Origin: a virus
Virus record (IMG/VR): IMGVR_UViG_3300029258_004337
Location: 1 to 64,000 of that record
Reading direction: 5' to 3' (one strand)
Length of the DNA stretch: 64,000 nt
Shown: piece after piece, positions 19,433-60,940 of the stretch
Numbering within the stretch: the first letter of the stretch is position 1
How the letters are laid out: each line of letters starts with the position of its first letter
The notes under the pieces: generated by a model
What the model was told of the DNA's origin: nothing
The model's database searches: none
The model's input: only the letters and a program-made list of their open reading frames with translations
Made by a program: the position numbers and the translations under genes

Positions 19433-19885
19433 ATGAACCCCACCCGTGAAGACATGTACAGCCGCATCATGGCCCGAGCCCAGGTCGATGAGCTGCAGAA
19501 GCTCGCCGGCGTCAAGGACCGGATCGGTGCGGCCTGGAAGGGCGGCAAGTCCTTCGCCTCTCGCCACCGCGGCAAGGTGGGCCTGGCCGGCGGTCTGGCT
19601 GTCGGCGCCGGCGCCGGCGCGGTCGGAGGCTACAAGCTCGAGCAGAACCGGCTGTCGCCCAAGGAGGCCCGCTTCACGGCCAGCGTCGCGCGTCGCGCAC
19701 ACACGGCCGGACGCGCGCAGCAGTTCGCCGCCCTGCCTGCCGACGTCCGCGTCAAGCTCATGAAGGCCAAGGCCAAGCCCATCTCGGACGCGCCCCCCGC
19801 CCTGCAGCGCCACGCCGCGGCCCTGCGCGCCAAGGGCGGCAAGTTCATCCGCAACCCCAGCACCGGCCAGGTCTACTCCCTCTGA
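19433..19885 (+). CDS. Gly-zipper small protein with N-terminal LQKLA motif
   Basis: This is a 150-residue protein. GGGAG precedes the ATG by 7 nt. Residues 20-25 read ELQKLAG, the K-x-A motif also found near the start of the proteins at 51268, 54080, 56194 and 58119. A hydrophobic Gly/Ala segment follows at about 49-65 (GLAGGLAVGAGAGAVGG), long enough for one membrane span. The remainder is basic. Similar architecture in five scattered genes suggests a family of packaged or membrane-active virion proteins. The function is not known. Confidence 0.6.
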   Translation: MNPTREDMYSRIMARAQVDELQKLAGVKDRIGAAWKGGKSFASRHRGKVGLAGGLAVGAGAGAVGGYKLEQNRLSPKEARFTASVARRAHTAGRAQQFAALPADVRVKLMKAKAKPISDAPPALQRHAAALRAKGGKFIRNPSTGQVYSL

Positions 19886-41338: not shown

Positions 41339-42424
41339 ATGACCCTGCAGCCTGCGACCCTCGATGTGTTCGACGACGGCGGTGCCCTCCTCAAGGAGCA
41401 CTTCCCCGACCCCTCCACCCTTCCGGACGTCGTGAAGACGGCCGAGGCCACGGAGCGGGAGGGTCACCAGGACGCCGACTTCGCTGTCGTCCTCACGGAC
41501 GGACGCGAGAGGGAGCCGCGCTTCCTCATGTCCAGTCCCGGCCACACCGCGCTGTCGGTGATGTACTTCGGGGAGACGCACGGAGACCTTCCCCCCGAGG
41601 CGGAGAAGGTGGCTGCCGCTCGGCTGGCGTACTCCTGCCGGCGGTACGGCCTCGGCGTCCCTGCACTCCTGGACGATCTCCGCGACACGGAGAATCACGG
41701 AACCCCCTACGTGATGCTGGAGGGTGGCCAGGAGGTGACCAAGGTCGCGGAGGCCCCGGGGGAGGAGAGCTACGCCCTCGGCGAGCGCTTCCCCCTCTCG
41801 TCGGCCCAGGAGATCAAGGCGGCCGTCCACTACTTCGACGACAACGCCGTCCGCATGGACCCCGAGGACCGGCACGAGTTCGCGTTCAACGTCGCCCAGG
41901 CGGCGGAAGACGCCGGCATGCGAGTGCCCGAGTCGCTGGAGAAGAGCGCGGGACGGGACCTCAACCCGTCCTGGCAGTCCCACTTCCTGACCCGCAGGCA
42001 CATCCTCGAGGAGCGTGAGGCGCCGGTCGAGCACGTGCAGGCCCTCGAGAAGATCGCCTCCGTCGCCGGCGACGTCGCCCCGCTCGAGCTCGCACAGGGC
42101 CTGGCCCACTTCGACCGGCGCACCGGGCTCTCCGAGTCCTGGGGACGCGAGCTGTTCGATGCCTACGACTCCTGCATGACGAAGGTCGCCAAGGTCGAGC
42201 GCATCGATCTGGCCACGCAGAAGGAGTACCGAGCAGGAGTTCCCGAGCAGGAGTTCATCGACGCGGCGGCCAACAGCAGCGTCATGGTCCGGATCCGGGA
42301 CATGTTCGGCAGCGACTTCGCGGACAAGTTCTCTCGCGACCCGGTGGCGACCTACAAGTCCGCGCCTCCCCGCCTCTCCACCATCCTCGGTCGCATCGTC
42401 ATGGGATGGGGTGTCGGGGGATGA
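41339..42424 (+). CDS. Head-region protein with repeated K-x-A motifs
   Basis: This is a 361-residue protein; GGAG precedes the ATG by 8 nt. It has no known enzyme motif. It contains repeated short motifs of the form hydrophobic-x-Lys-x-Ala: V-V-K-T-A at 31-35, A-E-K-V-A at 88-92, V-T-K-V-A at 133-137, L-E-K-S-A at 200-204, L-E-K-I-A at 236-240 and M-T-K-V-A at 280-284, with two looser copies (Lys160, Lys340). Spacing between the six is 36-67 residues. The conserved-looking block D-P-E-D-R-H-E-F-A-F-N-V lies at 174-185. The same motif recurs 13 times in the protein at 56194. It is the first gene of the head module, coupled to the next by ATGA. Confidence 0.6.
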   Translation: MTLQPATLDVFDDGGALLKEHFPDPSTLPDVVKTAEATEREGHQDADFAVVLTDGREREPRFLMSSPGHTALSVMYFGETHGDLPPEAEKVAAARLAYSCRRYGLGVPALLDDLRDTENHGTPYVMLEGGQEVTKVAEAPGEESYALGERFPLSSAQEIKAAVHYFDDNAVRMDPEDRHEFAFNVAQAAEDAGMRVPESLEKSAGRDLNPSWQSHFLTRRHILEEREAPVEHVQALEKIASVAGDVAPLELAQGLAHFDRRTGLSESWGRELFDAYDSCMTKVAKVERIDLATQKEYRAGVPEQEFIDAAANSSVMVRIRDMFGSDFADKFSRDPVATYKSAPPRLSTILGRIVMGWGVGG

Positions 42425-43089
42425 CGGCATCCGCGCCACTTCTGCGCGCGCCGGGGCCGTTCGATGACGAGGCAGGCACCCACCTCCTCGTTCTTCATCG
42501 CCTGCTCCTGGCGCACCTGGGACCGTCCTACAGGGACCTCGACTCTGCGGCTCTGCGGGAGGAGATCACCGAGCGCTTCGGAGGCCTCGGCGACGTCGCG
42601 TGGAACCGCGTGCAGGCAGGGCGCCTCCTGGCCACCAACGACATGGCGTGGGAGGAGTGGGGCGTGTTCGAGAAGGTGGTCTCTGCCGTCGCCGGCGAGA
42701 TGCCAGACTTCGCCTACATGCAGCCGCCCGAGGCCGAGGACGTGGCCCGGACGCTCCTGACCATGGCCGAACTCGCCCAGCCCGACTTCCACTACGACGT
42801 GGTGGCCTACATCGGCGCGGCCTGCCTGCACGACGGTCTGTGGTACCTCGAGGCCCCACTGGACATCTCGCGGCCGGTCATCACCGAGTACGTGGAGGAC
42901 AAGAAGCTGGACCTCCCCTTCGACCAGGTGCGTCACCTCCTGGCTTCGCGGAGCCGGCCCTTCGCCAACCCGGACAGTCCCGCCGAGGTACAGTTGAACG
43001 AGGTGTTGGCCGTGCGGGAGGACCTCGCCGAGTTCCGCCAGGAGCTCATGGACCAGGCGGTGCACCTGCGGAGACCACGAAATGGGTAG
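42421..43089 (+). CDS. Head-region protein upstream of portal
   Basis: This is a 222-residue protein; the ATG at 42421 overlaps the upstream stop (ATGA), which I prefer to a start 15 nt earlier. It is mainly helical, with segments L-L-V-L-H-R-L-L-L-A-H-L and Y-D-V-V-A-Y-I-G-A-A-C-L. It has no Cys pairs or nucleotide-binding motif. The 3' end overlaps the portal gene by 8 nt. An adaptor, scaffold or packaging accessory role is possible, but no direct evidence was found. Confidence 0.55.
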   Translation: MTASAPLLRAPGPFDDEAGTHLLVLHRLLLAHLGPSYRDLDSAALREEITERFGGLGDVAWNRVQAGRLLATNDMAWEEWGVFEKVVSAVAGEMPDFAYMQPPEAEDVARTLLTMAELAQPDFHYDVVAYIGAACLHDGLWYLEAPLDISRPVITEYVEDKKLDLPFDQVRHLLASRSRPFANPDSPAEVQLNEVLAVREDLAEFRQELMDQAVHLRRPRNG

Positions 43090-44989
43090 CTTCTCGTCCA
43101 GCGCAGGGACCTCCGGTGCCCCTCTCACAGGCTCGTTCAAGCACGGCTCGCTGGACCACCGCAACCAGTCCAGCCGGTACCCGAGCCCGTGGTGGGACAT
43201 CGCTTCGATGGACCTGCCGAAGAACATCAAGCAGCTGTTCAAGCGCCTGGCCTACCACGCCACGACGAACCCGCTCATCTCATCCGGCGTCCGGAAGATG
43301 GCGGCCTACCCCGTCACCAAGGTCCAGGTCGACGCCAACGAAGAGGAGGGCTTCGACCGCCACGTCCAGCGGTGGGAAGACCTCCTCCACCGGGTGCTGA
43401 ACATCCAGAAGGTCCAGGTCGAGCTGGCCATCGACTACTACACCTACGGCAACGCCTTCGCCTCGATCTACCTGCCCTTCCTCAAGATGCTGCAGTGTTC
43501 GCACTGCAAGGAGAGTCACCGGGTCAAGCGGCTGAAGTTCAAGAAGGACTGGGACTTCAAGGGCTTCCGCTTCCACCTGACTTGTCCCTCCTGTGGGCAC
43601 ACGGGCCGCGCGCGCGCCTTCGACAAGCCCATTCGCTCCCACAAGGACATCCGCATCGTCCGGTGGGAGCCCGAGCAGGTCGACATCGACTTCAACCCCG
43701 TGACGACCAACAAGCGGTACACCTACAAGGTCCCCGCCGACGTCGCGGCCAAGATCCGTCAGAAGGACCCCTGGTTCATCGCGGACATGCCGCAGGCCTT
43801 CCTCGAGGCGGTGAGGCTCAACAGGTCCGTCCGCCTGGTGGACGCCAACCTGTTCCACTTCGCGGCGCCGTCGCCGTCCACGAAGTCGGCCCGGGGCTGG
43901 GGCCTGCCTCCCATCCTGGCTGCGATGAAGGACAGCTACCACCTGCAGATCATGAAGAAGGCGAACGAGGCCGTGCTGCTCGAGCACATGCTGCCCCTCG
44001 ACGTGTTCTTCCCGGCCTCCTCCAGCCCCAACGCGGACCCCTACGTCCACACCAACCTGGGGCAGTGGCAGAAGGACACCGAGCAGCAGCTCGCCTTCTG
44101 GCGCAAGGACCCGAACCACAAGCCCGTCATGAGCCTCCCTCTCGGTCACCAGCGCATCGGAGGCACGGGCAAGTCCCTCATGCTGACGCAAGAGATCCGG
44201 GCGATGTCGGAGCACGTCCTGGTCGGGATGAACGTGCCCCAGGAGTTCGTCTTCGGAGGGCTCACCTGGTCGGGGTCGAGCGTGTCGATCCGCATGCTGG
44301 AGAACATGTTCCTGGCCGACCGGGACATGCAGCACCGCTTCCTGCAGCACTTCGTCATCCCCGTCATCTCGATGTTCATGAAGTGGAGCCCCGTCAAGGT
44401 CCACATGAAGCAGTTCCGGATGGCGGACGACGTGCAGGCCAAGCAGCTGCTGATGCAGCTCAAGACGATGGGCGACCTGAGCGCGAAGTCGCTGCTCACC
44501 GAGTTCGACAAGGACTACGACGACGAGCAGCGGATGATCCGCCACGAGCTCCGCCAGAAGCTGGCCATGCAGAAGATGCAGGTCGAGGCCCAGGCCGACG
44601 TCCAGGCCGAGGTCCAGATGCGGCAGCAGGCGCGAGCGCAGGCCGCCGCAGAGCCTCCCGTGCAGGATGACGTGTCGAACCGGCAGGTCAACGTGCTGGA
44701 CCTCGCCGAAGGCTGGGCCTACCGCCTGGCCCAGCTCGATCCGGCGAAGCGAGAGCAGGTGCTCGCCAGCATGAACGAGAAGATGCCCGAGATGGCTCGC
44801 CGCGTGCGCCACGTCTTGGCGTCGTACCCCACGCCAGAGGCGCCCCACCAAGGCACGACCGACGAGGATCTCCCGGGAGTGGGCGACGGCATGATCTCTT
44901 CAGGGCAAGAGGGGTCCGGCGGCGGGGCTGTCGTCGACATGCGGCCGATGCCTTCCCAGAGGCCCCCACGTCGCGCTGGGGCGGTCTGA
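43082..44989 (+). CDS. Portal protein with inserted zinc finger
   Basis: This is a 635-residue protein. The portal signature Y-G-N-A-F lies at 122-126 after a helix with A-I-D-Y-Y-T. A zinc finger is inserted at 139-171: C139-S-H-C142 and C168-P-S-C171, separated by a Lys/Arg-rich loop. The stretch after it (L-V-D-A-N-L-F-H-F, then P-P-I-L-A-A-M-K) and the C-terminal Q/A-rich coiled coil are usual for large-phage portals. The portal is the dodecameric DNA gate of the capsid. The C-terminal 60 residues are Gly/Pro-rich and likely disordered. It directly precedes the RNA polymerase gene. Confidence 0.8.
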   Translation: MGSFSSSAGTSGAPLTGSFKHGSLDHRNQSSRYPSPWWDIASMDLPKNIKQLFKRLAYHATTNPLISSGVRKMAAYPVTKVQVDANEEEGFDRHVQRWEDLLHRVLNIQKVQVELAIDYYTYGNAFASIYLPFLKMLQCSHCKESHRVKRLKFKKDWDFKGFRFHLTCPSCGHTGRARAFDKPIRSHKDIRIVRWEPEQVDIDFNPVTTNKRYTYKVPADVAAKIRQKDPWFIADMPQAFLEAVRLNRSVRLVDANLFHFAAPSPSTKSARGWGLPPILAAMKDSYHLQIMKKANEAVLLEHMLPLDVFFPASSSPNADPYVHTNLGQWQKDTEQQLAFWRKDPNHKPVMSLPLGHQRIGGTGKSLMLTQEIRAMSEHVLVGMNVPQEFVFGGLTWSGSSVSIRMLENMFLADRDMQHRFLQHFVIPVISMFMKWSPVKVHMKQFRMADDVQAKQLLMQLKTMGDLSAKSLLTEFDKDYDDEQRMIRHELRQKLAMQKMQVEAQADVQAEVQMRQQARAQAAAEPPVQDDVSNRQVNVLDLAEGWAYRLAQLDPAKREQVLASMNEKMPEMARRVRHVLASYPTPEAPHQGTTDEDLPGVGDGMISSGQEGSGGGAVVDMRPMPSQRPPRRAGAV

Positions 44990-45030: not shown

Positions 45031-48000
45031 GTGTCCAACCCAGTCGACAGCTTCGAGAGCGTGAAGCGTGAGGTCGCCGAGGCGCTGACCGAGGTGTTCC
45101 CCGTCGAGAACGGCCGGGACAGCATCCGCCTCGAGAACGTCGCGGTCCGCGACACCAAGAACCCCGACGACGTGACGGCCCAGTCGGACGCCATCGACAA
45201 CGGGAAGACGTGGGCAGTGCCTGTCGAGGCCGACGTGGTCCTGTCGCGCAATGGCAAGGACGTGTCGCGCCGCCGGCTCAAGGTGATGGACCTCCCTCGG
45301 ATGACCGAGAGGGGCTCGTACATCTACAACGGCAACGAGTACCACATCTCCAACCTGTTCACGCGAAAGTCCGGTGTCTACCACCGCATGCGCGAGAGCG
45401 GCGATGCGGTAGCCGACTTCAACCTCGCGAACCGCAGCCAGTTCGCGGGCCGGCGGATGAAGGTCCAGTACGACCCCGCGACGTCGGAAGTGGCGGTCAT
45501 GCGGGGGACGTCGAAGATCCCGCTCGTGGACTTCCTCCGCATGGCAGGAACCGACGACTCGAAGATCAAGGCCGTGCTGCCCGAGAGCGTGTGGTCCTCG
45601 AGCCTCAAGGCGTCCCAGCCCAAGAAGTCCCGTGCTCGACTGGCGCGGTGGCTCGGGGTGAAGGTCGACGAGACGGAGTCCGTGCTCAAGGAGAAGCTGG
45701 CCGAGACGGAGCTCTACCCCGAGACGACGCGCCGGACGTTGGGCATGGACGCCAAGGAGGTCACGCCCGACGTCCTGCTGCAGAGTGCCAAGAAGCTGGT
45801 CGGCATCGTGAAGGGAGACCCGGAGGACAACCAGGAGGCGATGGAGTTCCAGCGCATCGCGGGAGCCCCGGAGCTGTTCGGTGACCAGCTCCGGAAGAGC
45901 AAGAAGGCCATCCAGCGCCGGGTGAAGTCGGCGATGGCCCGGAAGGAGAAGGGCGGCGTGCGGGCCATGATGCCCAGCGAGGCGCTGCAGCGTCCCTTCA
46001 ACAGCTTCTTCTCGACCTCCCTGGCGAACCAGACCGAGCTCATCAACCCGCTGCAGGCGCTGTCGGCCTCGCGCCGCACGACGCTCATGGGCCCTCACGG
46101 AGGCATCCGGTCGGAGCACGTCGTCTCCGACGAGGCGAAGATGATCGACCCGAGCCAGCTCGGGTTCCTCGACCCCGTGCACACGCCGGAGGGCCCCCGC
46201 TTGGGCATCACGCTCTCCATCCCCCTGGGCACGCGCAAGAAGGGGCGGAAGCTCGAGTCCCGGTTCATCGACGCGAAGACCGGCAAGACGGTCTGGCTCG
46301 ACCCGACCCAGCTCCAAGGCAAGTCCGTGGCCTTCCCGGACGAGTACCGGGAGTCGGGCCGGAAGCGGGTGGCGCGCAAGAAGCGCGTCCTGGTCCAGAA
46401 GGACGGCGAGATCACCGACGTCGCTCCTCGCAGCGTCGACTACATCATGCCCTCTCCCCGGGAGATGTTCGGCATCACGTCGAACCTCATCCCCTTCCTG
46501 TCCTCGGACCAGGGCAACCGCACCATGACGGCCTCCCGCCAGGCCGAGCAGGCGGTGCCGCTCAAGCACAGGGAAGCCCCTCTGGTCCAGGTACTGTCGG
46601 ACTCGGGCAAGACCTTCGAGGAGGAGCTCGGCAAGCGAGTGGCTCGAACCAGCCCGGTCGCCGGCACCGTGACCCAGGTCCAGAAGGACGCCGTGGTCAT
46701 CAAGGACGCGGGAGGCAAGAGCCACAAGGTCGCCCTATTCCGCAACTTCGGGTCGAAGGCGAATTCGCTCTACGACTCGGAGGTCAAGGTCAAGGCAGGA
46801 GACGCCGTGAAGGCCGGGGACGTGGTAGCCGACACCACCTTCACCCGCGATGGCGTCCTGGCCCTCGGCACCAACCTCCGCACCGGGTACCTGCCTCTCA
46901 AGGGCTACAACTTCGAGGACGGCATCGTCATCTCGGAGACGGCGGCGGGCAAGCTCACCTCCGAGCACGTCCACAAGCCCGAGACGACCCTTGGCAAGAG
47001 CTCCCAGGTCGACCGGCGCAAGTTCGTCAACTCCTACCCAGCCCTGTTCAACAAGGGGCAGCTGGAGAACGTGCAGGACGACGGCGTGGTCAAGGTCGGG
47101 GCACGTGTGTCGAAGGGGGACCCTCTCCTGCTGGCGCTTCACGACCCCACGGACGCGCGCCCGGGTCGTCCGAAGCGAGGCCGGAGGAACTCCCGTCGCT
47201 TCGTCTCCGGTGCCATCACCTGGGATAAGGACGTCGAAGGCGAGGTCGTCCGCATTCAGCGGCTCAAGGAGCGAGGAGTCGAGCGCGTCGTCGTGCACGT
47301 CCGCACGGCCGAGCCCGCCAAGGTCGGCGACAAGCTCGTGGGGCGTCACGGCAACAAGGGCGTCATCACCCGCATCATGACCGACTCTCAGATGCCCTAC
47401 GTCGAAGAGGACGGGGAGAAGAAGGTCCTCGACATCGCCTTGAACCCGATGGGGATCCCAGGCCGCATCAACCTCGGTCAGGTCCAGGAGACGGCGGCGG
47501 GCAAGGTCGCGGCCAGGAAGGGTCAGGTCTACAAGGTCAAGAACTTCGATCCCGAGATCTCGGACTACACGGCGCAGGTGGCCAAGGACCTTGGCGCCGC
47601 TGGGTTCTCCGAGGACGGCAAGGAGGTCCTGTTCGACCCTGAGACGGAGAAGCCGTTCCGCCAGCGCGCCGCCGTCGGCCAGCAGTACTTCTACAAGCTG
47701 CGCCACCAGGTCGACAAGAAGGTGAGCGCGCGCTCTGGCTCTGGGTCGGGCCGCACGGCATCGGGCGGCAGCACCTCCCCCTACGACATCAACCACGCCC
47801 CCAGCTCCGGAGCTCCCCACGGCGGGCAGTCCCTGGGCGAGCTGGGCACCTACGCCCTCCTGGCGCACGGCGCGCGGGAGAACCTGCACGAGATGCAGGC
47901 GTACAAGGGCGAGCGGAACACGGCTCTGTGGGACGCCCTTCGGGAAGGAACGCCCCTGCCTCCCCCGAAGGCGCCCTTCGTGTACGAGAAGTTCCTCAGC

Positions 48001-51000
48001 ATGCTCAACGGCGTGCGAGTCAACGTGCGGCGCAACGGCAACAGCCTCCAGCTCATGCCCTTCACCGAGGACCAGGTGAAGGCCCTGGCTCCCAAGGCGC
48101 TTCCACAGCCAGGCCTCGTGCTCCACTCCACCACGGCGGAGCCGATCCGGGGCGGCCTGTTCGACCCCGAGATCACCGGCGGCGTCGACGGCGACCGCTG
48201 GTCGCGGTTCGAGCTTCCCGAGGCCATCCCGAACCCGGTCTTCGAGGACGCCATCAAGAAGCTCCTGGGCATCAACCAGGCCAAGTTCAACAAGTTGGTG
48301 AGCGGCGAGACGCAGGTCAACGGCAAGCGCGGCGGTGAAGCCATCGAGGAGATGCTCTCCGGCATCGACGTGAAGGCCGAGGAGAAGCGCCTCAAGGAGC
48401 GGCTGTCGTCCCTCAAGCCCGGTGCGACTCGGGACAAGGCGTACAAGCGCTACCGGATCGTGCGCGCGCTCAACGAGGGAGGCCTCGACCCGTCGGTCTA
48501 CATGATGCGGTCGGTGCCGGTCCTCCCGCCACGCTTCCGCCCGGTCACGCCCCAGGCCGACGGCCGGCTCATGACCAACGACCTCAACTTCCTGTACAAG
48601 GACGTCGCGTTCACGGCCGAGGGCCTCCAGAAGCTCAAGGACGTGCACATGGACTACGTGTCCATGGCTCCCATCCGCAAGGGCGTCTACGACGGGGTGA
48701 AGGCCTTGTCTGGCGTCGGCGGCAACATCAGTCGGCGCGCGCGGTCGAGCCAGGACGACAGCTACAAGGGCATCATCGACCTCATCACCGGCAAGGTGCG
48801 GCGCAGCGACGGCAGCGACGGGGGCCGCTCGAAGGAGGGGTTCTTCCGCAAGAACATGCTGCGCAAGCGGCAGGACTTCAGTGCTCGGTCGACCATCACG
48901 GTGGAGCCCGGCCAGGACCTCGACGAGCTGGGAATCCCCGAGAAGATCGCGTGGACGCTCTACCAGCCCTTCGCCGAGCGCGAGCTCGTCCGGGAGGGCA
49001 TGGGCTACCTCGACGCCGAGGAGGAGTACGCCAAGAAGTCGGACAGGTCGCGCCACGCCCTCGAGCGAGCGATGAGCCAGCGCCCGGTCCTGTTCAAGCG
49101 CGACCCCGCCCTCCACAAGTTCAACGTCCAGGCGTTCCGGCCCAGGCTCGTGAAGGGCTCGGCGCTGGAGATGCACCCCCTGGCCGTGGGAGGCTTCAAC
49201 GCCGACTTCGACGGCGATGCCATGTCGGTCTACGTCCCCATCTCGGACCAGGCGGCTCGCGAAGCCACCAAGATGTTCCCCTCGAAGAACCTCTTCAGCC
49301 CGACGACCGGCGCGATCATGCACACCCCGGGGCACGAGGCGCTGCTCGGCCTGTACCTGATGACGAAGCCGGGGAAGAAGACCTCGAAGACCTTCAAGAC
49401 GCAGGCCGAGGCCGAGAAGGCGTTCCGGACGGGCAACCTGAACCTCGACGACATCGTGCGCGTCGGTGGCGCGGAGACGACGCTGGGCCGCCTTCGCGTC
49501 GAGTCCGTCCTCCCCGCGCAGTACCGCGAGACGGGGAAGCGGAAGGTCAAGGACATGACGGTGCTCGACGCCAAGAGGATGAAGGGACTCCTGTCCCGCC
49601 TCGGACGGGAGCACGAGCAGGACTACGGCAAGGTCACCAACGCCCTGACGATGCTCGGGAACGAGCACTCGTACAAGGAGGCCTTCTCCATCGGCCTGGA
49701 CGACTTCCGGGTCGTGAACAAGGCCAAGCGGGACCGGATCATCGGGGAGTCGAACCGGGAAGTCGACGCACTCTTGCGGCAGGGCAGGAAGCGCAAGTCC
49801 GCTGAGGTCCTGTCGATCTTGGACAAGGCGACCGACCGCATCGACGCCTTGACGACCCAGAAGCTGAAGGCGGACCCGACCAACATCTACCAGATGGTGA
49901 CGTCGGGCTCGCGAGGCAAGCCGGAGCAGCTCAAGCAGATCATCTCGACGCCTGGGCTCGTGAAGAACGCCAAGGACGAGGTCGTGCCCTTCCTGGTGCC
50001 GAGCTCGTACTCGGAGGGCCTGGACACTAGTGCGTACTGGGTCACGCTCGCCGGCGCGCGCAAGGGCACCCTACAGAAGACGCAGGGCGTGGCCATGCCA
50101 GGCTACATGACCCGCCTCATGATCAACAGCACCGTGGACCAGCTCGTCACGGAGGACGACTGCGGCACGGGCGACGGGACGAAGCTCTCGGTCGACGACC
50201 ACGACGCCCTGGACCGCTACCTGGCCAAGCCCCTCCGCGTCGGAGGCAAGACCTACCGCCGCGGCTCCGTCGTGACGCCGCACCTCCTGGCCGCCGCGAA
50301 GAAGGGCCGGAAGGGCGCGATCGAGGTCCGCTCCCCGACGAGGTGCCAGTCCGAGGACGGGATCTGCAAGAAGTGCATGGGCCTGTCCGAGAACGGGCGT
50401 CCCTACGACATCGGAGACAACCTCGGCGTCGTCGCCTCTCAGGCTGTCGGAGAGCCCAGCACCCAGCTGTCCCTCAACGTCTTCCACCAGGGCGGGCTGG
50501 CCAAGGGCCGCGGCTCCGACTCGATGGGCACCTTCAAGCGCCTCGAGGAGCTGCTCACCCTCAACACGAACCTGCCGTTCACGGCGCCGCTCGCCCCACA
50601 GTCGGGGACGGTGAAGGACGTGAAGAAGGCCGACCGAGGCGGGCACAACGTCTACATGGGCGACGCCACGCTGTGGGTGCCTCCTGGGCAGGACCTGAAG
50701 GTGAAGAAGGGCCAGCGTGTGGCCCGCGGCACCGCGCTCTCCACGGGGCCCCAGAACCCGCGAGACGTGCTGAACCTACGGGGCCTGCACCAGATGCAGG
50801 ACTACGTGACCGACCAGATCCAGGGCGTGCTCAAGAAGGCAGCCCCGGTGAAGCGGCGCAACATCGAGGTCGTGGTCAAGGCCATGACCGACATCACCCG
50901 CGTCGAGGACCCTGGAGACCACCCGGACTGGGTGCCCGGCGACATCCGCCCCGTGACCAAGGTCAACGCGTGGAACCGCAAGGCCGCCCGGGCAGGGAAG

Positions 51001-51234
51001 AAGTCGGTGGCTCACGAGCCCCAGGTGAAGGGTGTCAAGCTGCTGCCGAAGGAGCTCAAGGAGGATTGGCTGGCCCGCCTCAACTTCGAGGACCTGGGGT
51101 CTTCGCTGACCCAGGCGTTCCGCGAGGGCTGGCGGTCCAACATCCACGGCTTCCATCCCCTCCCAGGGCTGGCGGTGGGCTCCGAATTCGGCAAGACCAA
51201 GGGCAAGGTCAAGGACTGGCGCGGCCAGTACTGA
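45031..51234 (+). CDS. Single-chain RNA polymerase: fused beta and beta-prime cores
   Basis: This is a 2067-residue protein; the GTG start follows AGGAGGGG. The beta part (about 1-1010) has a fork-loop/rifampicin region I-N-P-L-Q-A-L then R-R-T-T-L-M-G-P, H384-T-P-E-G-P, G625-Y-N-F-E-D and G766-D-K-L-V-G-R-H-G-N-K-G, then G-G-Q-S-L-G-E-L and the C-terminal clamp strands. The beta-prime part (about 1015-2067) has G-G-L-F-D, V-L-P-P-R-F-R-P, F-S-A-R-S-T-I-T-V and the catalytic N1390-A-D-F-D-G-D1396. The bridge-helix region is G-A-R-K-G; the second zinc site is C1711, C1772, C1779, C1782; H-Q-G-G follows. The first beta-prime zinc finger is absent, and the large lineage insertions of E. coli beta and beta-prime are missing. 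It transcribes DNA; being in the head cluster it may be packaged. Confidence 0.93.
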   Translation: MSNPVDSFESVKREVAEALTEVFPVENGRDSIRLENVAVRDTKNPDDVTAQSDAIDNGKTWAVPVEADVVLSRNGKDVSRRRLKVMDLPRMTERGSYIYNGNEYHISNLFTRKSGVYHRMRESGDAVADFNLANRSQFAGRRMKVQYDPATSEVAVMRGTSKIPLVDFLRMAGTDDSKIKAVLPESVWSSSLKASQPKKSRARLARWLGVKVDETESVLKEKLAETELYPETTRRTLGMDAKEVTPDVLLQSAKKLVGIVKGDPEDNQEAMEFQRIAGAPELFGDQLRKSKKAIQRRVKSAMARKEKGGVRAMMPSEALQRPFNSFFSTSLANQTELINPLQALSASRRTTLMGPHGGIRSEHVVSDEAKMIDPSQLGFLDPVHTPEGPRLGITLSIPLGTRKKGRKLESRFIDAKTGKTVWLDPTQLQGKSVAFPDEYRESGRKRVARKKRVLVQKDGEITDVAPRSVDYIMPSPREMFGITSNLIPFLSSDQGNRTMTASRQAEQAVPLKHREAPLVQVLSDSGKTFEEELGKRVARTSPVAGTVTQVQKDAVVIKDAGGKSHKVALFRNFGSKANSLYDSEVKVKAGDAVKAGDVVADTTFTRDGVLALGTNLRTGYLPLKGYNFEDGIVISETAAGKLTSEHVHKPETTLGKSSQVDRRKFVNSYPALFNKGQLENVQDDGVVKVGARVSKGDPLLLALHDPTDARPGRPKRGRRNSRRFVSGAITWDKDVEGEVVRIQRLKERGVERVVVHVRTAEPAKVGDKLVGRHGNKGVITRIMTDSQMPYVEEDGEKKVLDIALNPMGIPGRINLGQVQETAAGKVAARKGQVYKVKNFDPEISDYTAQVAKDLGAAGFSEDGKEVLFDPETEKPFRQRAAVGQQYFYKLRHQVDKKVSARSGSGSGRTASGGSTSPYDINHAPSSGAPHGGQSLGELGTYALLAHGARENLHEMQAYKGERNTALWDALREGTPLPPPKAPFVYEKFLSMLNGVRVNVRRNGNSLQLMPFTEDQVKALAPKALPQPGLVLHSTTAEPIRGGLFDPEITGGVDGDRWSRFELPEAIPNPVFEDAIKKLLGINQAKFNKLVSGETQVNGKRGGEAIEEMLSGIDVKAEEKRLKERLSSLKPGATRDKAYKRYRIVRALNEGGLDPSVYMMRSVPVLPPRFRPVTPQADGRLMTNDLNFLYKDVAFTAEGLQKLKDVHMDYVSMAPIRKGVYDGVKALSGVGGNISRRARSSQDDSYKGIIDLITGKVRRSDGSDGGRSKEGFFRKNMLRKRQDFSARSTITVEPGQDLDELGIPEKIAWTLYQPFAERELVREGMGYLDAEEEYAKKSDRSRHALERAMSQRPVLFKRDPALHKFNVQAFRPRLVKGSALEMHPLAVGGFNADFDGDAMSVYVPISDQAAREATKMFPSKNLFSPTTGAIMHTPGHEALLGLYLMTKPGKKTSKTFKTQAEAEKAFRTGNLNLDDIVRVGGAETTLGRLRVESVLPAQYRETGKRKVKDMTVLDAKRMKGLLSRLGREHEQDYGKVTNALTMLGNEHSYKEAFSIGLDDFRVVNKAKRDRIIGESNREVDALLRQGRKRKSAEVLSILDKATDRIDALTTQKLKADPTNIYQMVTSGSRGKPEQLKQIISTPGLVKNAKDEVVPFLVPSSYSEGLDTSAYWVTLAGARKGTLQKTQGVAMPGYMTRLMINSTVDQLVTEDDCGTGDGTKLSVDDHDALDRYLAKPLRVGGKTYRRGSVVTPHLLAAAKKGRKGAIEVRSPTRCQSEDGICKKCMGLSENGRPYDIGDNLGVVASQAVGEPSTQLSLNVFHQGGLAKGRGSDSMGTFKRLEELLTLNTNLPFTAPLAPQSGTVKDVKKADRGGHNVYMGDATLWVPPGQDLKVKKGQRVARGTALSTGPQNPRDVLNLRGLHQMQDYVTDQIQGVLKKAAPVKRRNIEVVVKAMTDITRVEDPGDHPDWVPGDIRPVTKVNAWNRKAARAGKKSVAHEPQVKGVKLLPKELKEDWLARLNFEDLGSSLTQAFREGWRSNIHGFHPLPGLAVGSEFGKTKGKVKDWRGQY

Positions 51235-51267: not shown

Positions 51268-51873
51268 ATGTTCATCCCGCAAGACGCAGTCCCGTTCTTC
51301 CTCGACGAGATGGAGAAGTGCGCCGTCGCCATCGGCATGGAGCTGGGCGACAACGCCCGCTCCTACGGGATTCGGGCCAAGAAGACGGGGAAGGACGATC
51401 GCGGACTCGCCTACTCCAAGGGCATCGGCGCGGCGGGCGCGGCCGGTGCCGGCCTGGGTGCTGCGACAGGTGCAGTGACAGGGAAGGCGACGCAGATCTC
51501 TCTCCTGCGCAAGGGAGGGACCGCGAAGGCGGTCCAGGAGGGGGTCAAGGACTACCTCACGCTGAAGGGCGCCGCGCGGAAGGCCGGGGTCAACTCCGCC
51601 CTCGAGGGAGGAATTGCGGCAGCGAAGGAATTGCAGGAGAAGGGCTGGAGCTCCAACACGGACGCGACGGTGAAGAAGGTCACGGAGACGGCGACTGACT
51701 CGCTGACGTCGCCCGGCGTCAAGCGCGTCCTCGCCCGTAGGGGTCGCGCGGCGCTCGGAGCCGCGGGCTTGGCGGCTGCCGCCGGGGCGGTGGGCAAGGC
51801 AGCCCCCAATGCAGCCACGTACGAGGCATCGAAGACCCTCGCCACCAGGCCCGGCCGCAAGAAGGGTCGCTGA
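51268..51873 (+). CDS. Gly/Ala-rich protein with N-terminal MEKCA motif
   Basis: This is a 201-residue protein; GAGAGGG precedes the ATG. Residues 15-19 read M-E-K-C-A, the K-x-A motif. Two Gly/Ala-rich hydrophobic stretches follow (about 50-70, GIGAAGAAGAGLGAATG, and about 157-177), each able to span a membrane, and the C terminus is Arg/Lys-rich. This is the same architecture as the proteins at 19433, 54080 and 58119. It directly follows the RNA polymerase gene and may be a co-packaged or pore-forming virion protein. The function is unproven. Confidence 0.6.
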   Translation: MFIPQDAVPFFLDEMEKCAVAIGMELGDNARSYGIRAKKTGKDDRGLAYSKGIGAAGAAGAGLGAATGAVTGKATQISLLRKGGTAKAVQEGVKDYLTLKGAARKAGVNSALEGGIAAAKELQEKGWSSNTDATVKKVTETATDSLTSPGVKRVLARRGRAALGAAGLAAAAGAVGKAAPNAATYEASKTLATRPGRKKGR

Positions 51874-56193: not shown

Positions 56194-58119
56194 ATGAAGC
56201 CCCTCTTCCACAAGCCCGACACGTCCCTCGAGAAGCTGGCCTACCGCACCAAGCTGGGCTCGAACCCCAACGACTGGGGCATGGAGGTCCTCGACGCGGT
56301 CTACAAGGAGCACCCCTACCTCAAGTCCTACTCCGTGGACGTCGACATCAAGGACAAGGACGAGGGGTCGGGCACAGCGGTAGGCACGGTGATCGTCTAC
56401 CCGACGATGATGACGAAGGAGGCTGCCGCCGCGAAGCAGCGCGTCATCTCCATGCCGATCATCATCAAGGAGCGCGAGATGGCTCCGCTCGACGTGTACA
56501 TGGGCGGCGAGGAGGGCACGCCCCACCCTGCCAGCCAGGAGGACATCGAGAGCACGCTGCAGAGCCCGGAGCTGTTCGAGGGTCCGGAGCCGAGGCGTTC
56601 CGGTCGTGGAGGGCGCGGAGCGCTGGACCTGAGCGTCCCCTCTCGCTTCGGTACGATGGGCTCCGGTCAGGGCTACGGGATGGGCGGCGCTGACCAGAGC
56701 AGCGGGTCCCTGATGAAGACGGCGTCGGTGTGGGCGGGCATCGGCCCTCGCCTCGACCTCGAGAAGCTCGCCGCCTACCTCAAGCCGGTCGCGCACAGCA
56801 TCGAGCCCACCGTCCGAGAGGTCGCGGCTGCGGTCGATGCCGGGACGGTGGGTCCTTCCGACGCCGACGTCGTGCAGGTGAGCGGCAAGCCCGGCAACCT
56901 CATGGTCAAGACCGCGAGCTGCGGGGCCTACTCCCCTGTCGCGAAGCGCATCGACGACGACGCAGCCCAGAAGCTCGTCGGAGATCGCTGGGGCGAGCTC
57001 GCGGAGCGCGGCTACGTGACCCTCGTCTCGAACCCGGTCGACGACATCGACCAGCTCGAGAAGCTGGCTTCAGTCCAGGAGGCCAGCGTCGGCGAGGTCT
57101 CCATCGGGGGGCGTCGAGTCCGCGCCTCCATCTTCCCGGAGGTTCGGACGCTGCACCACACCCAGCTCCCCGGCACGCTCGTCCTCGGCGACGGCTGGTT
57201 CGCGGAGGCGGAGAAGGTCGCGGCGGCCAACACGATCATGCACCCCGGCATCGAGCCCTTCCGTCCGTCGGGCCGGGTCGTCCCCGTCGACGGTCAAGGC
57301 GTCGCCTACGAGCCGCTGCTCATCAAGTCCTTCGTCGGCTCCTTCGAGAAGCACGCCTGCGTCGCCACCCGTCTCGGTAGCGGACAGGACATCGTCATCC
57401 ACTTCTTCCCCGAACTGCAGAAGATCGCCCACGTAGGCGGCAACGAGTACGCCTTCCCGGTGCCGGGTGCCTACATGGGCTTCCTCCCGTACCCCGACGT
57501 CGACAGCCGGAAGACCATCGACGACGCGATGGTGCAGGACGCCGCCTTCGACCTCCGCCGCATGCCGTCGATGGTGAAGGTCGCCTCCGACGGCGAGGCG
57601 TGGCGTCTGTGGGGACCCGCCCGCATCCAGGGCGAGTACGACGAGGCCGGCGTGATGTTCGCCCTCGGCGCTGCTGGTGTCGCCCCAGACCGTGCCCGGG
57701 GCATGCTCAAGCACGCGTCCCTCTACCGGGAAGCCGTCGAGTTCTCGAACGTGCGCGACATCGAGGAGGCGACTCCTGCGCCGCCGCGTGACCTGGCACC
57801 CCGCTCGACCACCTGGCGTGACGCGGTGGCCTACCTGTTCAACGAGGACGGCCAGGAGCTGATGAAGTCGGCGGGCGTGCGAATGAAGGGGCAGTCGCCC
57901 AGCAGCCTGCTCTCCCTCGACTTCGTGACGCCGGAGAACGCGTCCATGTACGTCAGCTACCTCCCGGACCTCGAGAAGGCGGCGTCTCACCTCGCGGAGT
58001 TGCTCGTTGCCTCCCGACTCGGGTACGACGACATCAGGGAGCGGTCGGCCAAGAACGCGATGACCCAGCTCCAGTCCGTGGTCACCGACCTACGGGAGCT
58101 CGACCACAAGGTGCACTGA
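56194..58119 (+). CDS. Virion protein with 13 regularly spaced K-x-A motifs
   Basis: This is a 641-residue protein. The motif hydrophobic-x-Lys-x-Ala occurs 13 times, with Lys at residues 14, 75, 175, 191, 239, 290, 341, 386, 410, 462, 506, 558 and 594. Typical forms are L-E-K-L-A-S/Y and M-V-K-T-A-S. From 191 onward the spacing is 24-52 residues, mostly 44-52. A Gly/Arg-rich linker is present at 130-170. No known domain is recognised. The protein at 41339 has at least six such motifs. Repeated sites of this kind could be cut by a maturation protease or could bind a partner repeatedly. It overlaps the next gene by one base. Confidence 0.65.
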   Translation: MKPLFHKPDTSLEKLAYRTKLGSNPNDWGMEVLDAVYKEHPYLKSYSVDVDIKDKDEGSGTAVGTVIVYPTMMTKEAAAAKQRVISMPIIIKEREMAPLDVYMGGEEGTPHPASQEDIESTLQSPELFEGPEPRRSGRGGRGALDLSVPSRFGTMGSGQGYGMGGADQSSGSLMKTASVWAGIGPRLDLEKLAAYLKPVAHSIEPTVREVAAAVDAGTVGPSDADVVQVSGKPGNLMVKTASCGAYSPVAKRIDDDAAQKLVGDRWGELAERGYVTLVSNPVDDIDQLEKLASVQEASVGEVSIGGRRVRASIFPEVRTLHHTQLPGTLVLGDGWFAEAEKVAAANTIMHPGIEPFRPSGRVVPVDGQGVAYEPLLIKSFVGSFEKHACVATRLGSGQDIVIHFFPELQKIAHVGGNEYAFPVPGAYMGFLPYPDVDSRKTIDDAMVQDAAFDLRRMPSMVKVASDGEAWRLWGPARIQGEYDEAGVMFALGAAGVAPDRARGMLKHASLYREAVEFSNVRDIEEATPAPPRDLAPRSTTWRDAVAYLFNEDGQELMKSAGVRMKGQSPSSLLSLDFVTPENASMYVSYLPDLEKAASHLAELLVASRLGYDDIRERSAKNAMTQLQSVVTDLRELDHKVH

Positions 58120-58628
58120 TGGATCCGTTCCGCGCAGAACTCGAGAAGCTGGCCAACGTGAAGACCACGCTGGGCGCTGCCTTGCTGTCCGGCCTGGCGG
58201 CCGGCTCGGCCATCCGGTCGAACCAGAAGCCGCAGTACCGCACGGACCAGATCGTGCGCGCGCAGCGGGGCATGACGGCCGACGAGTTCAAGCGACGTGA
58301 GCTCAACCGCAAGCTGACGGCCGGAGCCGGGGCAATCGCCACGGGCGCTGCCGTGGGCCTCGGCATGGCTCCTGCGCGCAAGGCCCTCGTGTCTCGCGCG
58401 CAGCGCTTCGTCACCGACGTGGCCGAGCCGACCCTCGCGCGCATCGACGAGGTGGCTGCCGCGGCGTCCAAGCGTCACGCGGACGACATCGTGGCCGCCG
58501 CCACGGCCAAGAGCGGGGAGGTCGGAGAGTCGTTCGGCAAGGGCGTCAGGTCCGGCCTGGACTTCAGCTCCATCTTCCCGGACGGCAAGATCCGCAGCGT
58601 GCTGGGGCGCTTTGCCGGCAGGGGGTAG
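58119..58628 (+). CDS. Gly/Ala-rich small protein with LEKLA motif
   Basis: This is a 169-residue protein; TGATG overlap with the upstream gene. Residues 8-12 read L-E-K-L-A. Two hydrophobic Ala/Gly stretches (about 18-30 and 66-85, GAGAIATGAAVGLGMAP) could span a membrane. The C-terminal half is helical with acidic and basic patches. This is the same architecture as the genes at 19433, 51268 and 54080. A packaged membrane-active role is inferred from the shared layout. Confidence 0.6.
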   Translation: MDPFRAELEKLANVKTTLGAALLSGLAAGSAIRSNQKPQYRTDQIVRAQRGMTADEFKRRELNRKLTAGAGAIATGAAVGLGMAPARKALVSRAQRFVTDVAEPTLARIDEVAAAASKRHADDIVAAATAKSGEVGESFGKGVRSGLDFSSIFPDGKIRSVLGRFAGRG

Positions 58629-60021: not shown

Positions 60022-60431
60022 TGGCCCTCTACGCGACCAAGACCCTCACAGGCGTCCGCGCCTACCTCGACTTCCTGAACGGCACGAAGGTCGCGTCAGG
60101 CGCCCCCCAGCCCGACGCGGGCACCGGCACGGGCCTCACGGCGGCGGCGGCCTCGGCCGACGTCAGCGGCGCCAACGACGCCTTCGCAGACGTGGAGGTG
60201 GGTGACCGCTTCTACATCAGCGGGGTGGCCACCGAGTTCGTCGTCAGCGTGAAGGCCGACGACGAGAACCTGACGCTGGACGATGTCGCCGGCGTCACGC
60301 TCGCTGGCGACATCGGGAAGTGGCAGGCTCGCCGCGGCGCGCGCATCGAGCCGTCGAGCATCCACGAGACCGACATCGAAGGCTCGAACGGACCCATCTA
60401 CCGAGTGACCTACACCGTGGTGGACTTCTGA
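60021..60431 (+). CDS. Small virion protein sharing the VGD module
   Basis: This is a 136-residue protein. Residues 48-105 (F-A-D-V-E-V-G-D-R-F-Y-I, then K-A-D-D-E-N-L and G-K-W) match residues 94-152 of the tail protein at 284-1261. The N terminus (MALYATKTLTGVRAYLDF) and the C-terminal strands add a sheet. It is small enough to be a decoration, adaptor or tail-tube-like protein. The shared module indicates duplication within the genome. It is coupled to both neighbours. Confidence 0.55.
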   Translation: MALYATKTLTGVRAYLDFLNGTKVASGAPQPDAGTGTGLTAAAASADVSGANDAFADVEVGDRFYISGVATEFVVSVKADDENLTLDDVAGVTLAGDIGKWQARRGARIEPSSIHETDIEGSNGPIYRVTYTVVDF

Positions 60432-60940
60432 TGCCGACGAGACGCGACCTCCTCCTCGGCATGACGGCAGCTCTCGCGCTGCCCGCCCTTCCCGGGCTGG
60501 TCCCTCCGGCTCTCGACCTGCCTCTCGGCGTCCTCCGTGCTGAAGACGACGCCGGACCCTTCGTCCTCGTGTGCACCCAGGAGGGTCCCGTCGGCGCCAT
60601 CAAGACCTTGGTGGTCTACAAGGACCGCCTGGTCGGGTACCAGTACGTGGCCGTGAGGGAGTCGGACGGGTGGGTGGCCCTCTTCCCTCCCAAGGACCCG
60701 TACGACCCCGACAAGGTGCCGGATCGCCACGCCCTGGTCTACGACAGGCCCGCCCGCCTCACCGACTGGTCGGACGACGAGCCCGACTTCGACGCCGCCC
60801 CCGTGGGCACGCTCATGCTTCGTCGGCGGGAGTGGCCTCGGGGGAAGGCGTGGGTCCAGCTGCAGGAGGGGTGCGCTCCGGACGGTGATGCTGCGCGCCT
60901 GCTTTCTTCCTGGACCAGGACTCGACCTCCTGGGGTCTAG
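60431..60940 (+). CDS. Protein with a Tat-like N-terminal signal
   Basis: This is a 169-residue protein. The N terminus reads M-P-T-R-R-D-L-L-L-G followed by an Ala/Leu/Pro hydrophobic stretch and a short A-L-D or A-E-D cleavage-like region around 28-40, matching the twin-arginine pattern [ST]-R-R-x-[FL]-L. The rest is a single beta-rich domain (F-V-L-V-C-T, then T-L-V-V-Y-K-D-R-L-V-G-Y-Q) without known catalytic residues. A Tat-exported phage protein would act in the periplasm or outer layers. The similarity of the N terminus to a Tat signal could be accidental. Confidence 0.5.
   Translation: MPTRRDLLLGMTAALALPALPGLVPPALDLPLGVLRAEDDAGPFVLVCTQEGPVGAIKTLVVYKDRLVGYQYVAVRESDGWVALFPPKDPYDPDKVPDRHALVYDRPARLTDWSDDEPDFDAAPVGTLMLRRREWPRGKAWVQLQEGCAPDGDAARLLSSWTRTRPPGV

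Follow-up and report, generated by a model that had tools for sequence, protein, structure and literature searches.

The short motif phi-x-K-x-A, in which a hydrophobic residue (phi) stands two positions before a key Lys and Ala follows at +2, very probably acts as the recognition and cutting signal of a phage prohead protease and would thus work like the phi-x-E signal of T4. Computation reveals that the motif is enriched, confined to head genes and conserved, that it occurs in homologues of virion proteins, and that a protein with a protease fold and invariant residues is encoded among them. Prohead proteases as such, and cutting at short motifs, are already known. A Lys/Ala code extending over a whole lineage, a candidate enzyme that bears a zinc-knuckle-like insertion, and a list of its predicted substrates appear to be undescribed in the literature searched, the coverage of which is incomplete and in which no mention of the motif (LEKLA; K-x-A) was found.

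The motif-rich head protein

The analysed DNA, referred to as the window, corresponds to the initial 64 kb of a phage record (G000) with a length of 174,678 bp. Its open reading frame at 56194..58119 on the plus strand encodes a head/virion protein of 641 residues with 13 copies of [LMFA]-x-K-x-A, all of which had been noticed in an original prediction made from the sequence alone. The motif lysines are residues 14, 75, 175, 191, 239, 290, 341, 386, 410, 462, 506, 558 and 595 and thus account for 13 of the 31 lysines of the protein; twelve of these positions had been given correctly, while the last had been placed at 594, which is a Glu. The proposed excess over composition was borne out, as 20,000 composition-preserving shuffles of the protein contained 0.80 copies on average and never more than 6. 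When every phi-x-X-x-Y pattern was counted in an unbiased way, K/A ranked top with 12 observed versus 0.9 expected occurrences (z 12). From residue 191 onward, the intervals between copies are 48, 51, 51, 45, 24, 52, 44, 52 and 37, seven of nine thus falling within the previously described range of 44–52, and the spacing over all 12 intervals is evener than random (CV 0.41, p ~0.01 in a post hoc test).

Searches of this protein against Pfam, PHROG and NCBIfam gave no match, the phage collection held no direct relatives, and a direct scan of viral contigs retrieved the same-sequence contig only; homologues were reached via other head genes. Profile alignment revealed colinearity with the family of gp218 from Salmonella phage Arash, with M30 placed on M1 of the family (local E 0.0026), which leaves an N-terminal extension of 29 residues that includes K14. 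Family membership is confirmed by nearer homologues with E 2e-84 (36% identity) and E 4e-32 (26%). The protein is hence best read, from these alignments, as a divergent gp218-family head protein with a cleavable-looking N-terminal leader.

The individual copies, all on the plus strand, differ in their conservation. K14 (SLEKLAY, 56227..56241) lies within the extension, a candidate cleavable leader, and all near homologues possess an N-terminal copy. K75 (MMTKEAA, 56410..56424) and K410 (ELQKIAH, 57415..57429) are retained in the closest homologue, as is the K-x-A portion at K341 (EAEKVAA, 57208..57222), while K-x-A at K239 (LMVKTAS, 56902..56916) is retained in all near homologues and K558 (ELMKSAG, 57859..57873) in every near homologue that reaches the site. 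At K506 (GMLKHAS, 57703..57717), K506-x-A508 is aligned in nearly all gp218-family members, with Lys in 24 and Ala in 25 of the 26 sequences of a wide family alignment. The copies K175 (SLMKTAS, 56710..56724), K191 (DLEKLAA, 56758..56772), K290 (QLEKLAS, 57055..57069), K386 (SFEKHAC, 57343..57357) and K462 (SMVKVAS, 57571..57585), all detected by the motif scan, are absent from most homologues. The same holds for K595 (DLEKAAS, 57970..57984), which is located in a predicted helix and is possibly incidental. Since these six copies are mostly unconserved and K595 falls into a predicted helix, not all 13 sites need to be cut.

Confinement to head genes

The whole record was covered in overlapping stretches, genes were called, and observed motif counts were compared with expected ones. 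Enrichment was found in the head genes at 64.0–75.5 kb (35 versus 8.0 expected), at 51.3–60.9 kb (23 versus 6.6) and at 41.3–45.0 kb (8 versus 1.9). Elsewhere, the motif is at background, i.e. 6 versus 5.0 in tail and fibre genes, 12 versus 10.9 in replication genes, 34 versus 32.5 in early and hypothetical genes and 0 versus 0.4 in TerL. The original wording, which placed the motif in one virion protein, is therefore correct for the 641-residue protein but understates the extent of the phenomenon, as the enrichment runs through the head genes. K/A also ranked top in the phi-x-X-x-Y scan of the remaining head proteins of the record (35 versus 4.5, z 14) and of Arash gp220-223, 225 and 242 (39 versus 4.2, z 19), and it was not top among tail, early and other proteins of either phage. 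As a positive control, the scan of T4 gp68/gp21/gp22 returned phi-x-E (41 versus 20.6, z 5.5). This is the known protease signal of T4, so that the method does find the genuine code of a prohead protease in a case in which it has been established. Glu at P1, as in the T4/phiKZ-type x-x-E, was not found to be the rule here: Lys is enriched in the head proteins of G000 and Arash, and Glu in the T4 control.

Among the genes of the window, a 361-residue protein with 6 motif copies (0.5 expected) is encoded at 41339..42424 (plus strand) upstream of the portal gene and is a probable head-core protein. The portal protein itself (43082..44989, plus strand), a homologue of Arash gp204, is near background. 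The motif is at background in the RNA polymerase beta-beta' protein of 2067 residues encoded by a single open reading frame (45031..51234, plus strand), which is homologous to polypeptides abundant in Arash virions.

Relatives and lineage

Searches with TerL, RNA polymerase and major capsid protein (MCP) led to Arash and to the Vibrio phages D181, D148 and D69. The lineage is in keeping with the multimeric-RNAP-encoding Caudovirales (mReC) described in PMC7481178: the record encodes both RNA polymerase beta regions and possesses homologues of the RNA polymerase, portal, TerL, MCP, sheath and protease of Arash. It differs in that its RNA polymerase is one fused open reading frame, whereas beta and beta' are separate in Arash, D181 and the contigs L014/L015; in D181, these frames are additionally interrupted by a homing endonuclease gene.

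The head homologues of Arash carry nine (gp220), six (gp222), eight (gp223), six (gp225) and eight (gp242) copies of the motif, along with K27 of the MCP, and those of D181 carry it as well, often at matching positions. Homologous head proteins encoded on about 80 metagenomic contigs of this lineage, whose members encode an RNA polymerase, are likewise full of the motif. When all residue pairs at distances 1–6 were ranked over 1223 non-redundant proteins from 80 contigs, K..A at distance 2 was the second most over-represented pair (3063 versus 1934 expected), with CxxC first and L..K and M..K at distance 2 third and fifth. Arash gp218, gp220-226 and gp242 were found in virions by mass spectrometry (PMC10585845, Table 2). 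In the published proteomics, the motif-rich proteins reach high coverage of up to 100% (PMC10585845), which implies that fragments may be retained or that the proteins may be left uncut. The word “protease” does not occur in PMC7481178, and neither this paper nor PMC10585845 mentions a protease or a cleavage signal. Since a cut after Lys would be invisible in a tryptic digest, this may be why any processing went unnoticed.

A candidate prohead protease in the head operon

Just outside the window, at 65698-67284 of the record, the head operon encodes a 528-residue homologue of Arash gp222 that is the most conserved motif-bearing head protein, with relatives in 315 viral contigs. Its gene lies near that of the MCP (69306-70346; PHROG major head protein), and the gene order is the same in Arash, D181 and L014/L015. 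The homologues in Arash and D181 are unannotated or called “structural”.

The assignment of a fold draws on an AlphaFold2 model, built from 50 sequences, of the homologue L017 (L017:10001-11521) and not of the G000 copy itself. This model contains a confident beta-rich domain at residues 45–208 (domain pLDDT ~90), whose best match among solved structures, obtained with a second-look aligner, is T4 gp21 (5jbl_C; Z 11.6, 142 of 166 residues, rmsd 2.9 Å), followed, among weaker matches, by the VZV, PRV and HSV proteases (Z 6–7.4). Foldseek alone returned nothing significant for the domain against the PDB (best E 0.14), and a PDB sequence search with the family found no protease. For the 528-residue protein, PHROG gave matches of unknown function only; three homologues match phrog_18299, “head maturation protease” (3.1e-9, 2.1e-6 and 6.2e-10). 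Pfam gave no match. Invariant residues of the family are H97 (49/49), S148 (49/49) and D201 (50/50), which correspond to H144, S200 and D252 in G000. S148 aligns with Ser140 of T4 gp21 in a weak local profile alignment (E 0.028), while global alignment to T4 gp21 failed; from position, we infer the equivalence of the family His and Asp to those of T4 gp21. By modelled fold, profile and invariant His/Ser/Asp, the protein is likely a prohead protease with predicted activity.

The edges of the domain carry the motif in coil. Of 49 homologues, 49 have K31 and 46 have A33; of 50, 41 have K218 and 39 have A220. This arrangement is consistent with self-processing, a step that SPN3US gp245 is reported, and T4 gp21 proposed, to undergo (PMC5694885, PMC9958956). 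Between the Ser and the Asp, the family possesses an invariant, zinc-knuckle-like insertion (C158-x2-C161-x10-C172-x-H174) that is absent from T4 gp21.

Capsid protein and N-terminal leaders

Every prohead protease studied so far removes a leader from the N-terminus of the MCP (PMC7411985). Each of the 49 distinct MCPs of the lineage has K-x-A at a fixed distance, either 8 or 9 residues, upstream of the [FY]xRxxLR that is invariant in the N-terminal arm, and the preceding sequence is variable; the MCP of the record reads GIEKTAAVSQAF at K22.

The motif also accumulates at other N-termini. It falls within the first 30 residues of 23 proteins of the record (7.5 expected), including those beginning with MDPFRAELEKLA, MLQDAFVEEMEKLA, MNDAYIQELEKLA and MFIPQDAVPFFLDEMEKCA, and of 328 of the 1188 proteins of relatives (64.5 expected), and several N-terminal copies have the common context F-x-x-E-[LM]-x-K-x-A. 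In T4, capsid-targeting sequences of 10–20 residues are removed by gp21 (PMC7411985). A small protein encoded at 51268..51873 (plus strand) bears the capsid-targeting-like leader MFIPQDAVPFFLDEMEKCA with the motif at the leader end, and another at 58119..58628 (plus strand) bears the leader MDPFRAELEKLA. A third (19433..19885, plus strand), with the motif K23 (VDELQKLAG) near its N-terminus, is a candidate head-targeted protein. The leader MFIPQDAVPFFLDEMEKCA (51268-51330) is nearly identical to MIVPPDAAPFFLAEMEKCA of a small protein at 173069-173130 of the record, and the similarity of the two suggests a duplicated head-targeting leader.

Proposed cleavage code and alternative readings

Cleavage by a head maturation protease was among the meanings initially envisaged for the motif, and the copies are well supported as candidate sites: the motif tracks head proteins only, has a fixed N-terminal place in the MCP and stands at both edges of the gp21-fold domain. 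We infer that cutting occurs, that the 528-residue protease is its agent and that the copies are used as sites. The protease would probably free itself at the two motif copies that bracket its catalytic domain, and inside the prohead it would cut phi-x-K-x-A sites. The cut at the MCP motif would remove a short N-terminal leader, and cuts in small internal proteins would remove their capsid-targeting-like leaders, while scaffold or core proteins would be cut at many sites into fragments that can leave or stay as internal peptides. In the 641-residue protein, the leader site and up to 12 internal sites would give rise to pieces of ~16 to 100 residues. Analogy with T4 would place the scissile bond at K↓x, in a P3/P1 register, and analogy with herpesviruses at A↓[SAG], with Ala as P1; motif conservation does not choose between the two.

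Alternatively, the motif could be a docking or addressing peptide that brings proteins into the head by binding to its shell, scaffold or core and that remains uncut, with multi-copy proteins acting as multivalent core organisers. Such a role would agree with the strong N-terminal enrichment in small proteins, with the F-x-x-E-[LM]-x-K-x-A context that several of these copies share and with the retention of multi-copy proteins in Arash virions. However, docking alone leaves both the fixed place before the conserved MCP arm and the motifs at the two protease-domain edges unexplained, and the analogous T4 signals, which the same scan returns, are cut; as a replacement for cleavage we therefore regard it as unlikely. 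Docking need not exclude cutting, since T4 leaders combine addressing with cutting, and by this analogy the N-terminal copies may serve for docking in addition, as T4 capsid-targeting sequences do.

Much less probable still is the earlier suggestion that the 641-residue protein contains a diverged repeat domain, each copy of the motif marking the same position within a repeat. The seven intervals of 44–52 residues and a flank similarity slightly above random (a level attained by 9 of 500 random sets) would fit a repeat, yet the self-alignment, carried out as self-BLAST, gave the identity match only, with no register-matched self-similarity. Moreover, near homologues possess 5–10 copies, partly in other places and with other spacings, copies fall in helix, strand and coil alike in an AlphaFold2 model that is itself poor (mean pLDDT 50), and the same motif is found in many unrelated proteins, all of which speaks against this suggestion. 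That the motif arises by chance, or from the composition of a high-GC genome rich in Ala codons, has next to no probability: Ala is abundant (68 of 641 residues), but the shuffles, the controls across the genome and the conservation of the motif in relatives exclude this origin.

Returning to the cleavage code, a broader proposal is conceivable, although we place it slightly on the doubtful side: a single Lys-centred code might, throughout the lineage, both address proteins to the head and mark them for cutting, its reader being a zinc-knuckle gp21-like protease with a specificity shifted from Glu to Lys, and the processing being hidden by tryptic proteomics. The cleavage reading would assign the missing prohead protease and its predicted substrates, i.e. 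MCP leader, scaffold or core proteins and leader-bearing small proteins, to a widespread and almost uncharacterised lineage that packs RNA polymerase in the virion. It would also provide a simple sequence rule to predict head-entering proteins and a case of Glu-to-Lys specificity switching in the gp21/herpes fold that is directly testable in the cultured phage Arash, as well as a warning that such maturation can escape tryptic proteomics.

Comparison with known proteases

The candidate resembles T4 gp21 in the fold of its catalytic domain, in its head-operon position beside scaffold and MCP, and in its apparent substrates, which comprise an MCP leader, a multi-site scaffold and short N-terminal leaders. 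The two signals share a hydrophobic residue two positions before the key residue, which here is Lys with Ala at +2 instead of Glu. In contrast to T4 gp21, the candidate has the CxxC...CxH insertion and a C-terminal part of ~270 residues with further motifs, and it lacks a protein-sequence match to PDB entries. phiKZ gp175 and SPN3US gp245 (MEROPS S80) cut after S-x-E or A-x-E, whereas the motif described here contains Lys. Common to both systems are a large phage that has an RNA polymerase in its virion, a short motif in a large number of head proteins, several sites per substrate and auto-processing, the latter predicted in the present case; here, sites are additionally located N-terminal to the protease domain. 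Herpesvirus assemblin belongs to the same fold class (Z 5–7.4). In both cases, a cut site, which is a predicted one here, separates the protease domain from a C-terminal extension, and the Ala plus small residue of the motif echoes its A↓S scissile bond. The consensus of assemblin is another one, and the triad proposed here is His-Ser-Asp in place of the herpesvirus His-Ser-His.

Other features of the record

The tail-sheath protein (76649-79840 of the record) is unusually long with 1063 residues, and only its C-terminal part matches sheath profiles. On the minus strand, opposite tail genes, the open reading frame at 1318-2016 has a lipoprotein-like N-terminus (MRTLTIIIPAVLLTGCLAS). The open reading frame at 60431-60940, which has a low coding score, starts with MPTRRDLLLGMTAALALPALPGL, a sequence resembling a Tat-type signal that is odd beside head genes.
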